From Diplonema papillatum (Eukaryota > Euglenozoa > Diplonemea > Diplonemida > Diplonemidae): 64,000 nucleotides of DNA. Positions 47,361-50,091 of the stretch are shown here, piece by piece; position 1 is the first letter of the stretch, and every line of letters starts with the position of its first letter. The position numbers and the translations under genes are program-made. The stretch spans positions 37,000 through 100,999 of the forward strand of contig JAPJBO010000835.1 in the NCBI GenBank assembly GCA_030068145.1. Reading direction: 5' to 3'. The notes under the pieces are model-generated. The model was given only the letters and a program-made list of their open reading frames with translations, made no database searches and had not been told where the DNA came from.

Positions 47361-47588
47361 TATTGATTTATCAGGGGAATTCTACTAGGTAAAACAAACG
47401 ACCCTTAGGACACCTCGGTGCGCACTTGGATCGCGGGGGAAAATTTTCCCACCCGCCCTCCCTGCAACTCTGTTTATCATTTTCTGCCTTCGACGGCCGT
47501 GCGGCCATGGATACCCTCGTGCGAGGGTGCACTTTCTTGCTGGATACCAGCTTCCGTTGCTTCGGCGGCGAGATCCGTGGGGCATGGG
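47361..47588 (+). repeat. Split direct repeat A1
   Basis: 228 bp from TATTGATTTATCAGGGGAAT to CCGTGGGGCATGGG. Matches A2 at 49714-49941. Sequence diverges from A2 immediately after, which marks the internal deletion breakpoint or the A boundary. Confidence 0.9.
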
Positions 47589-47927
47589 ATTCGGGGGCCA
47601 TTGACACGGGAAATTTCGGTTTTGCTGCGGGGCATGGGCAATTTTCGCCAGTTGTGCACGGTGACGACGGACCAGCTGGACGAGCTTTTGAAAGCCGACG
47701 AGAAGATGCGCCGGTATTCGGCGCACAGCGTGAAGCGGGGCGCGGTCGACCACCTGATGGCGGCAAAGGCCGGGGGGGCCCCGTTCCCCGCGCACTTGAT
47801 CTCCCGTCTGGCGAAGCACGCCAACGAAGTGGACCCGACGGTGTCAGACATGACCATCCGGTACACGACGGATTCGGTAGCTCTGGCGCGCGTGCTGCAG
47901 ACCGGCGAGGTGACGATGTTCCTCTGA
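47589..47927 (+). pseudogene. Tyrosine recombinase, C-terminal half only
   Basis: The frame ending at 47927 reads RQLCTVTTDQLDELLKADEK, then RRYSAHSVKRGAVDHLM (His codon at 47724) and LISRLAKHAN, and then IRYTTDSVALARVL (Tyr codon at 47862). The HSVKR block, the KH block and the final Tyr match the C-terminal catalytic residues (H-x-x-[K/R]-R, H/W, Y) of tyrosine recombinases in YR retrotransposons. The first catalytic Arg and everything upstream are absent, and the open frame upstream of 47589 is just repeat A1. In an intact element this enzyme inserts a circular DNA intermediate without an integrase; this copy could not make it. Confidence 0.7.
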
Positions 47928-48017
47928 CGAAGGGGGTTCGCGCGGTGCGACTTCGCCTCGCAGACGACCAAGCCAGTCCTGAGCGCTTCGTGCAGCAACG
48001 CGGAGAAGTCGGCGCCA

Positions 48018-49586
48018 TTGCATGTCGACTCGGTGCCCCCGATCAATGTCGACGTGCTGCGGAAGCGGATGAACCCGCAAACGCGGAAACGATTTGACGA
48101 AACCTGGTCGCGGACGTTTTTTCCTCATGCGCATGGCAGAACGAAGTCTTCTCCCCCACGTCCCTCTAGATTTGCTTCAGCACATGCAAGGGAATTGCAG
48201 GCGCACGGGATTGCTCAGCGCGGTCGTGGGCCTAACGGCCTCCTCAATGTCCCGTTCACCGTTGTGGAGGAGAAAGAAGGGGCGCTTCGTCAGCGCTTTA
48301 TTCTCTGGACGTACGACGCCAACGCTGTGGTCGAGACGGACGGTTACCAGGCACATGTCCCGCTTCAGCATGTCTCTCAGTACCTCGAGGCGGTCAGCGA
48401 GGAGTGTGGCTCGACGCGAGACTTCCGGTGTGGGTTCTACGGCATCGAGATTCCGATCGCCTCTCGCGGACTCTTCGCATTCCAAGATGATGCAGGAGAG
48501 TGGTGGGAGTTGACGAGGCTGCCGATGGGACATTCCTGTGCGCCGGAGCTGATGCACACGGTGGCGTCGACGGCGGCGGGGCACCCGGAATACGTCGACG
48601 GCCAGTACGCGGTGTCCTCGGACGTGGTAGTTCACGTGTGGGTGGACAACATCCGGTACGCAGGGCCGCACGATCTAGTGCTGGCGGTGACGTCGCGGTT
48701 GGACGAGCTCGCTTCGGAAGCTGGCATGACGTGGAAGGCCGCCGACACGCAGACGGCTGCGCAACGCTACGAGTTCATCGGCGTTGAGTGGAATCACGCC
48801 GACGGAACAGTGGGCGTATCGCGCAAAATGCGGTCGCGGTTGCAACGTGCAGAGGACGCCATCGAAGGGGGTTCAATGACGGCCTCGGATGTGGAGTCCC
48901 TTGCTGGCCGTCTCCTTCACGCCTCGGCCATCACCGGCGTATTTGTGGGCGAGTTTTACTTCGTCTTGAAGTTCTTTCGCAGGGTGACGAACGCGTTGAA
49001 CCGGGGCGAGAAGGCCGTAGATGAGAAGGTCGTCCTCTCCGACGGCATACGGCGGTCGCTCCCCGTATGGCTGCGACGGGTTGCGCGGCGACGTGCCGTG
49101 CCTGTTGCCGCGCAGACGCCGGAGTTGGCGGTTTTTGTTGACGCCAGCCTGGATGGTTGGGGCGGTGTACTCGTGGATGTCGACACCAACGACATGGTTG
49201 TAGTGGGTGCGCGGTGGAAGAGAGCCGAAAGGCGTTTCCACATCAACGAGTTGGAAGCCATGGCTTTGGAGAGGTCCGTAGCGGCCATCACACCAGCGCA
49301 CGCGGGCTCCACGGTGTCCATTGTTGTGGACAATACTTCTGTGCAGGGGGTAGCCCGCAAAGGATCATGCCTGCGTTCGCAGGTTCTCAACGACTCTGTC
49401 GTGCGTGCATTGTTGTGTTTGCAGCGACTGAATATTGCATTTTCAGTTCGTTGGGTGAAGAGCGCGGGTAATCCTGCTGATCTGCCATCGCGGGTCCCGG
49501 TAACGTCTCTCACCGATAAGAATATCGCGGACATTTCACTTGCGGTCCGGGATTTTTTAACTGGCGAGATGGGTTTGGTGGCGTGA
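48018..49586 (+). CDS. Reverse transcriptase / RNase H of the YR retroelement
   Basis: An intact 522-residue frame whose stop lies inside B1. Reverse transcriptase region: RFILWTYDAN (93-102), motif A DFRCGFYGIEI (Asp135), motif B LPMGHSCAP (168-176), motif C HVWVDN (206-211). The second Asp of the usual xxDD box is Asn here. RNase H follows with VDAS (Asp375), NELEA (Glu411), VVDN (Asp438) and NPAD (Asp488), the four-residue active site. Such proteins copy the element RNA into DNA in the nucleus or cytoplasm. The start at 48018 is the first ATG in frame, 90 bp after the recombinase stop. The intact frame suggests recent insertion. It runs opposite to the host gene. Confidence 0.85.
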   Translation: MHVDSVPPINVDVLRKRMNPQTRKRFDETWSRTFFPHAHGRTKSSPPRPSRFASAHARELQAHGIAQRGRGPNGLLNVPFTVVEEKEGALRQRFILWTYDANAVVETDGYQAHVPLQHVSQYLEAVSEECGSTRDFRCGFYGIEIPIASRGLFAFQDDAGEWWELTRLPMGHSCAPELMHTVASTAAGHPEYVDGQYAVSSDVVVHVWVDNIRYAGPHDLVLAVTSRLDELASEAGMTWKAADTQTAAQRYEFIGVEWNHADGTVGVSRKMRSRLQRAEDAIEGGSMTASDVESLAGRLLHASAITGVFVGEFYFVLKFFRRVTNALNRGEKAVDEKVVLSDGIRRSLPVWLRRVARRRAVPVAAQTPELAVFVDASLDGWGGVLVDVDTNDMVVVGARWKRAERRFHINELEAMALERSVAAITPAHAGSTVSIVVDNTSVQGVARKGSCLRSQVLNDSVVRALLCLQRLNIAFSVRWVKSAGNPADLPSRVPVTSLTDKNIADISLAVRDFLTGEMGLVA

Positions 49587-49713
49587 CCTCCGGGGCTAGC
49601 CCGTTCGCTCACTTTCTGCGGCTAGCTCGGGGGGTAACCCCATCGTATGTGACCTCTCGTGTTTTCTCCGTTCATTGCTTGCGTCTCAGGAGTGCGTGAA
49701 CGACGGAGAATTC
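49582..49713 (+). repeat. Split direct repeat B1
   Basis: 132 bp from CGTGACCTCCGGGGCTAGCC to CGACGGAGAATTC. Includes the RT stop codon. Matches B2, with one visible substitution (CCCCATCG against CCCCGTCG). Confidence 0.9.
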
Positions 49714-49941
49714 TATTGATTTATCAGGGGAATTCTACTAGGTAAAACAAACGACCCTTAGGACACCTCGGTGCGCACTTGGATCGCGGGGGAAAATTTT
49801 CCCACCCGCCCTCCCTGCAACTCTGTTTATCATTTTCTGCCTTCGACGGCCGTGCGGCCATGGATACCCTCGTGCGAGGGTGCACTTTCTTGCTGGATAC
49901 CAGCTTCCGTTGCTTCGGCGGCGAGATCCGTGGGGCATGGG
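49714..49941 (+). repeat. Split direct repeat A2
   Basis: 228 bp, directly abutting B1. Same sequence as A1. Confidence 0.9.
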
Positions 49942-49959
49942 TTCCCACCCTCCGTCCCC

Positions 49960-50091
49960 CGTGACCTCCGGGGCTAGCCCGTTCGCTCACTTTCTGCGGC
50001 TAGCTCGGGGGGTAACCCCGTCGTATGTGACCTCTCGTGTTTTCTCCGTTCATTGCTTGCGTCTCAGGAGTGCGTGAACGACGGAGAATTC
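49960..50091 (+). repeat. Split direct repeat B2
   Basis: 132 bp matching B1 and ending GGAGAATTC exactly where the right CA tract begins. Defines the right end of the element. Confidence 0.9.

Follow-up and report, generated by a model that had tools for sequence, protein, structure and literature searches.

The diplonemid Diplonema papillatum is likely to host a VIPER-like tyrosine-recombinase retrotransposon whose life cycle, as proposed here, combines ribosomal frameshifting with the restoration of an end that trans-splicing removes from the mRNA. One copy of this element occupies 2,731 bp (47361-50091) of the stretch analyzed here, 64,000 nucleotides (nt) of contig JAPJBO010000835.1 (henceforth, the window); it is an internally deleted, non-autonomous member of a family with recent full-length copies. 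The strongest support for the expression scheme comes from the reading frames of the longer copies, where the frame at -1 relative to gag and the recombinase is open across the entire recombinase gene in one copy each of six families. On its anatomy, the element probably belongs to the VIPER group. Diplonemids are the sister class of kinetoplastids, and the initial annotation of the window had anticipated that a host outside Kinetoplastea would extend the VIPER-like group to a new lineage, which a diplonemid host indeed does if the grouping is accepted.

In the genome searched (271,365,524 bases in 2,910 contigs), the window element matches at least 59 pieces, itself included, and at least 17 further places match everything from its position 228 to its end, scores having been computed for 40 of 1,096 candidates. 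Whole elements of 4,617 bp, 99.96-100% identical to the copy at L009, occupy four of the 20 fetched loci (L009, L011, L012 and L015), and the whole element at L021 has 4,626 bp and 99.5% identity to L009. These relatives of about 4.6 kb, with gag and a complete recombinase between the same repeats, are what the initial annotation had suggested looking for. They are built as A1 (89 bp), gag, recombinase, reverse transcriptase (RT) with RNase H, B1, A2, X (157 bp) and B2, that is, with the recombinase before RT/RNase H and the split direct repeats in the VIPER pattern, as predicted. Next to F1, the family of the window copy, stand F2 to F8: F2-F5 were read in one long copy each (L037-L040), F8 up to the RT start (L073), and F6 (L061) and F7 (L027; decayed downstream) only at the gag end. 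The order gag, recombinase, RT holds in F1-F5, in one long copy each, and in F8 up to the RT start; full-length relatives with the recombinase 3' of RT were looked for, and none was found in these six families. Identity to F1 is 63-77% for RT/RNase H and 52-65% for the recombinase (F2-F5), and 34-49% for gag (F2, F4 and F5). The repeats A1 ... B1-A2-B2 are complete in F1; B1 and B2 are seen in F2, F3 and F4, and F4 also has a match of about 41 nt to A. The copies of F2 and F3 that were read are 5'-truncated, and that of F5 stops at B1.

In all six families, gag and the recombinase share one frame with a single TGA between them, and RT/RNase H lies in the -1 frame; upstream of that TGA, the F3 copy L038 has a broken gag, which is open in its sister L054. 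Across the six recombinase genes, one copy per family, the -1 frame contains no stop at all, against about 59 expected. With synonymous codon shuffling, the expected numbers for F1-F5 are 9.5, 7.4, 8.0, 10.9 and 12.5, and at most one shuffle in 2,000 is free of stops; F8, fetched after the idea had been formed, has none against 10.7 expected, with 0 of 5,000 shuffles stop-free. No such avoidance is seen in the +1 frame, where stops are about as frequent as expected. The same bias is apparent at the level of single letters: T at the third codon position never precedes AA, AG or GA in the six recombinases (0/420), compared with 68/568 in five RTs, and stands before other pairs at 358 of 2,047 positions in the same recombinases. 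Ahead of the recombinase core, the -1 frame encodes a conserved peptide (e.g., FTRKRENQLFALSRI; FTRKRENQLFALSRILARGRR), with a mean identity over 15 pairs of 0.52 versus 0.27 in the 0 frame; the relationship is reversed at the recombinase C-terminus, with 0.45 in the -1 frame versus 0.71 in the 0 frame. Over the recombinase region, the -1 reading is 35-48% identical to other families. A strong amino acid constraint on the -1 reading over the recombinase core was considered and rejected, 4-fold sites being barely more alike there than in RT (higher in 9 of 10 pairs). The interval from the TGA to the conserved peptide lacks Met in 6/6 families, and the first Met of the recombinase frame is found at residue 171 in F4, 194 in F8, 106 in F2, 76 in F5 and 64 in F1 and F3.

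At the end of gag, a candidate slippery site accompanies these open frames. The heptamer G_GGA_AAC (AAT in F5) is present in phase in 8/8 families, 15 or 18 nt before the TGA (21 in F7), and the codon in front of it, whether for Gln, Pro, Ser or Arg, has G as its last base every time; as background, GGA accounts for 28 of 110 Gly codons in gag and third-position G for 431 of 1,000. A stem of 7-10 bp starts 5-8 nt past the heptamer, with TGACTGG within the loop, and is part of the predicted fold in all seven families folded with a z score (-1.36 to -2.23) as well as in F8 (no z). Over eight rows (seven families, F3 twice, F8 left out), 94.3% of the stem cells pair versus 88.7% in shuffles, a value that 10 of 500 shuffles reach; three stem pairs are changed on both sides (5/500 shuffles), and slid versions of the stem pair at 37-74%. 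In F7, a perfect 9-bp stem is formed by an almost wholly different sequence. The junction together with the in-phase heptamer was found in 16 of 20 fetched stretches. Retroviral Gag-Pol frameshifting uses GGGAAAC sites, and the arrangement here is alike in its in-phase heptamer, its spacer of 5-8 nt, its stable hairpin and its -1 Pol; unlike in retroviruses, a complete second gene in the original frame lies between the shift site and RT.

The window copy can be described against this background. The initial annotation gave its repeats in the order A1, open reading frames, B1-A2-B2, with B1 and A2 abutting, and this was confirmed: A1 (47361-47588) and A2 (49714-49941) are identical at 228/228 positions, B1 (49582-49713) and B2 (49960-50091) at 131/132 (one mismatch), B1 and A2 directly adjoin, and 18 nt separate A2 from B2. 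A chance origin of the repeats is excluded because the B|A junction has 29 exact matches in the genome versus none for the pattern read backwards. The features are as follows, all on the + strand:

47361..47588, +: 5' A repeat, 228 nt, of which the first 89 nt are the A1 of full-length copies and the rest is of A2/X type
47408..47409, +: predicted spliced-leader acceptor in A1, with A positions 48 and 49 on either side; two more places of the family have the leader attached exactly at 49, and one of these was read in sequence
47588..47589, +: deletion junction, from A2-type position 228 to around 2058 in the 4,617-bp element, with about 1 nt shared
47589..47927, +: C-terminal fragment of the tyrosine recombinase (HSVKRG, LISRLAKH and MTIRYTT blocks), TGA at its end
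47928..49586, +: RT/RNase H open frame, 552 amino acids plus stop; RT box WVDN, not YxDD
49582..49713, +: B1, 132 nt, overlapping the RT stop codon
49714..49941, +: A2 (89 nt) and the first 139 nt of X
49942..49959, +: final 18 nt of X, preceding B2
49960..50091, +: B2, with the element terminus GAATTC
47211..47358, +: (CA)n array, 5' flank
50092..50221, +: (CA)n array, 3' flank

Compared with full-length copies, the window copy is without gag and the first part of the recombinase, and its A1 has 228 bp rather than 89, so that the long A1 noted initially is real in this copy and is not a feature of the family. Likewise, of the recombinase motifs reported 5' of an intact RT/RNase H, the 552-residue frame is open as described, and the recombinase is reduced to 112 C-terminal residues out of about 413. 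Near 47999, before the RT domain, 56 nt are deleted, which brings RT/RNase H of the window copy into the recombinase frame, unlike in full-length copies. Because the insertion sits inside a (CA)n microsatellite, this site tells nothing about target duplication.

The RNase H domain of the window copy exceeds the Pfam cut-off (RT_RNaseH, 29.2 bits, E = 1e-6), and, of five such domains examined, one gave a hit to the hepadnaviral C-terminal model, at E = 0.13, too weak for use. WVDN replaces YxDD in the RT catalytic box of 5/5 aligned families (including L009:6736-8385). Tyrosine recombinases share the conserved catalytic set R..HxxR..Y; here, the blocks AARWGE, HSVKRG, KH and RYT were recognized by eye, with K at the usual HxxR arginine, and the assignment is by motif and position, the recombinase having no meaningful Pfam match and no PDB match. 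Profile searches of RT/RNase H and recombinase against solved structures gave no match, and in prokaryotic genomes and viral contigs, where 25, 69, 31 and 61 pattern matches were obtained, none held and no relative was confirmed. Among the 79 RT matches listed (2,903 first-look candidates), six partial rows were left out, and 61 of the 73 near-complete ones lie in open frames of at least 850 codons. F8 (G000:C20, C129, C330 and others) occurs at 18 places that all share one RT score and 65% identity, and in 14 of these the open frame has 1,041 codons; the family probably represents a recent burst.

The ends of the elements bear on the second half of the proposed cycle. Elements start with TATTGATT and finish with GAATTC without a duplication visible by eye, and no target-site duplication was seen by eye in the printed flanks of the 12 solo units read (12/12); the flanks of several long copies carry on one tandem repeat unit across the insertion. 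In L023 (F1), spliced-leader sequence runs straight into element position 49, the base following an AG, and in L039 (F4) it runs into the element where A2 has AG; genome-wide, there are two exact leader junctions for F1 (C153, which is the L023 locus, and C504, unread) and one for F4. Beyond the splice site, both repeats of F1 and F4 have about 41 nt of A in common. With the leader at position 49, such mRNAs would therefore lose A 1-48, while A2 keeps it. The 5' A extends past nt 89 into X-type sequence in the window (228 nt), L027 (114 nt) and L028 (about 92 nt), and then jumps into the body at position 2058, 3387 and 2218, respectively. Given that nt 90-228 of the window's 5' A occur in full-length copies only after A2, and that L027 and L028 likewise run into X-type sequence, these 5' ends appear to have been copied from A2. 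The leader joined inside A at three places and the three deleted copies with an A2-copied 5' A together suggest that the A repeats probably restore the end that trans-splicing would remove from the RNA.

Short derivatives may point to a further role of the B|A junction. The genome contains 29 B|A junctions, 95 B ends and 106 A starts (100 of them listed), and 30 A-B pairs shorter than 650 bp without an exact B in front (C1865, which has such a B, is excluded), of which nine measure exactly 378 bp, the length of one A-X-B unit; seven of these nine and five shorter units were read. L013 is a tandem array, B-A-X-B-A-X-B, and L023 and L025 stop at B1. The solo units, the arrays and the B1-ended copies would all be explained by recombination at B|A junctions. 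L019, L024, L037 and L038 are left unexplained by a model based on circles alone, being 5'-truncated yet having a precise 3' B end. One tandem repeat stands on both sides of these four copies, reminiscent of target-primed insertion. A tandem repeat also abuts 28 of the 29 long-copy ends listed (27/28, one being listed twice; L009-L028 and the window) versus 4 of 24 short solo-unit ends (L041-L052); long copies either target tandem repeats or survive only there.

The expression scheme has to be weighed against several observations that tell against it. RT's own -1 stops fall below the shuffled numbers in 5/5 families, F1-F5 (12 versus 19.5, 12 versus 17.0, 15 versus 18.5, 13 versus 19.1 and 20 versus 32.2; P = 0.019, 0.085, 0.195, 0.048 and 0.002), and in the gag control, which covered F1, F2, F4 and F5 (F3 gag was left out), a deficit is seen in F4 (2 versus 5.8, P = 0.03), not clearly in the other three; part of the stop bias is therefore general, and no gag or RT control -1 frame is stop-free. 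The hairpin energies alone are modest, with z no stronger than -2.23, and one stem-pairing control is reached by 5-16 of 500 shuffles. Individual copies deviate: 9 of 11 F3 rows carry a -1-frame TGA, which in all three copies read occupies one site, a little downstream of the conserved peptide; in F4, L060 and L063 do not keep to the -1 frame; L068 has the junction and has lost the heptamer; and L053, L057 (160 nt) and L058 are without the junction. The case for UGA readthrough is drawn mainly from the lack of an early ATG in F2, F4 and F8, with Met present at residue 64 in F1 and F3 and 76 in F5. In F5, a -1-frame ATG overlaps the gag TGA, and reinitiation is therefore possible in that family. 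Finally, Ngaro and VIPER open reading frames are stated usually not to overlap (PMC3266345). Some of these points would fit gag, recombinase and RT/RNase H each starting from an ATG of its own, by separate mRNAs or reinitiation, with the -1 openness as a by-product: Euglenozoa trans-splice, the Met residues of F1, F3 and F5 offer starts for the recombinase, and the overlapping ATG of F5 one for reinitiation. We consider this unlikely, because by-product openness is rejected by the synonymous shuffles in six families, the Met-free interval up to the conserved -1 peptide offers no start in 6/6, the recombinases of F4 and F8 have none before residues 171 and 194, and inspection by eye reveals no conserved AG acceptor where gag meets the recombinase. 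Nor, by eye, is a GT conserved there, which bears on a cis-spliced intron joining gag to the -1 frame in place of a frameshift. Diplonemids do have noncanonical introns (PMC12621601), and the junction AGTGACT is donor-like in most families; yet GT is missing in F5 (AAAATGACT) and F7 (AACATTGACT), which still keep the heptamer and the hairpin, and an intron would not demand that the whole recombinase gene be open in -1, so that splicing of this kind seems very unlikely.

Compared with frameshifting, the structural side of the proposal meets different competitors. Ordinary deletion, or ectopic recombination between copies, rather than a template switch of the cDNA, could have produced the window copy, with tandem A-X-B arrays such as that of L013 supplying A-X upstream of a broken copy. 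However, the deletions in the window, L027 and L028 have three different A2/X ends and three different body positions, all three copies starting cleanly with A at the flank, and ectopic recombination would need three separate A-X donors; this origin is, in our judgment, somewhat unlikely. As for the class of the element, the recombinase stands 3' of RT in the standard order of Ngaro and PAT, and here it stands 5' of RT/RNase H, in all six families read. A Ngaro- or PAT-type element with its recombinase moved 5' by rearrangement would have the same type of split direct repeats along with a recombinase (PMC4157794). It is nevertheless extremely improbable, given that the six families read gag, recombinase, RT in a frame layout that is that of Trypanosoma cruzi VIPER; PAT, moreover, has a methyltransferase (PMC4157794), for which there was no Pfam match in the RT/RNase H, recombinase and gag readings scanned. 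A DIRS1-like element was also considered and rejected: no inverted terminal repeat with an internal complementary pair exists within one element, and inverted matches of 25-26 nt involve L009:4100-4125, part of a second, inverted copy. In DIRS1 itself, open reading frames can overlap, the catalytic part of the recombinase not being overlapped (PMC3266345).

The likeness to VIPER is one of layout, not of sequence, and the frameshift signal is described here from diplonemid families alone. In the T. cruzi VIPER consensus, ORF1 spans 169-1509, the recombinase 1510-2517 and RT/RNase H 1386-4214 (PMC5146736, Fig. 1 legend). Phases computed from these coordinates show that, as in the elements described here, the recombinase starts at the base after the gag ORF and in gag's frame, and that RT is at -1, in a frame that opens 124 bases ahead of the recombinase and stays open through all of it; the overlap has been attributed to alternative start sites (PMC5146736). 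The order gag, recombinase, RT/RNase H, the A1...B1-A2-B2 repeats and a short A2-B2 derivative are likewise common to both (PMC6681497). Unlike in VIPER, no CX2CX4HX4C box is seen by eye in the gag readings, although this box is absent in some VIPERs, too. TATE, of Leishmania and other kinetoplastids, compared by description only, has the same three genes and similar repeats (PMC6681497; PMC12278014), with the difference that two Bodo TATE copies consist of one single ORF (PMC6681497). SIRE of T. cruzi parallels the solo units in being an A2-spacer-B2 unit derived from a parent; the copy number here is low (nine of exactly 378 bp and about 21 of other sizes), compared with 2,233 in T. cruzi RA (PMC12618653). 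The hosts differ as well, a diplonemid here and kinetoplastids in the published VIPER-like cases consulted, which is a matter of distribution and not a structural criterion. The D. papillatum genome paper mentions, in one sentence, more than 60 ORFs resembling DNA transposon proteins, including TATE, and the word VIPER is absent from its available text (PMC10161547). Our literature searches, mostly at the level of titles and thus no proof of absence from print, returned no title describing these diplonemid elements, and a search on programmed frameshifting in tyrosine-recombinase retrotransposons gave a sole match, by title, that concerns Pseudomonas; within what could be searched, the diplonemid lineage is new as a host of such an element.

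Returning to the proposed combination of frameshifting and end restoration, the cycle would run as follows. The pre-mRNA would be trans-spliced at the AG inside A1 (position 48), yielding an mRNA without the first 48 nt of A, an event of which DNA traces are seen at three places in two families. Ribosomes would make Gag, and a fraction would slip by -1 at G_GGA_AAC and the hairpin, shortly ahead of the gag stop, and translate the recombinase gene from end to end in the -1 frame and on into RT/RNase H to produce Gag-Pol, as the signals and the stop avoidance suggest; other ribosomes might pass the TGA in the hairpin loop to give a Gag-recombinase, the weaker of these steps. The cDNA strand would then switch from the remaining 41 nt of A1 (49-89) to the internal B1-A2, which would restore A 1-48 and create the B|A junction, consistent with the three copies that have an A2-type 5' A. 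The recombinase would insert the B|A-joined circle without target duplication, and recombination between two B|A copies could release A-X-B, giving rise to solo 378-bp units and tandem arrays. The window copy fits a premature switch, in which the cDNA would have left the recombinase gene midway and continued on A2/X.

More broadly, and tentatively, with chances that we put slightly short of even, the scheme might hold for Euglenozoan VIPER-like elements in general: these would make a Gag-Pol with the complete recombinase gene inside the Pol frame, one hairpin would host both the -1 shift and UGA readthrough, and the A repeat would be kept since trans-splicing removes the 5' end of every mRNA and A2 is the sole template from which to restore it. 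If membership holds, VIPER-type elements that are structurally complete and recently active in the kinetoplastids' sister group would push back the minimum age of the VIPER group. The overlapping frames of VIPER, put down in print to alternative start sites, would gain a testable mechanism. Under this proposal, split direct repeats would make sense in hosts where trans-splicing trims the 5' ends of mRNAs, and short elements of the SIRE type would have a way to arise.

Some further observations concern the host and the surroundings of the element. The tail of the euglenozoan spliced leader (SL) has 625 matches in the genome versus none for the pattern read backwards, far more places than the 110 SL RNA genes published for the 280-Mb assembly (PMC10161547), and many of these copies may be retrocopies of trans-spliced mRNAs. 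At C66 and C164, U2 genes and spliced-leader sequences share a strand and are about 220 bases apart; the SL RNA-5S-U2 repeat of D. papillatum has been called exceptional and apparently absent in other diplonemids (PMC10161547). In the window, a unit at 46840-47205, flanked by two (CA)n arrays, has parts that recur on either side of the F1 copy in L013 and is therefore probably one more dispersed repeat. Beside the element, at 45408-46277 on the - strand, is a frame matching glycosyl hydrolase family 31. A 78-bp tandem array at 51244-51733 is directly followed by an inverted, diverged copy, and a 63-bp tandem repeat at 24967-26108, with 18 copies matching at 100%, must be very recent or homogenised. 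From 53781 to 64000, more than 10 kb consist of TGTGCACGAG-type satellite with a strong strand asymmetry of A over T.

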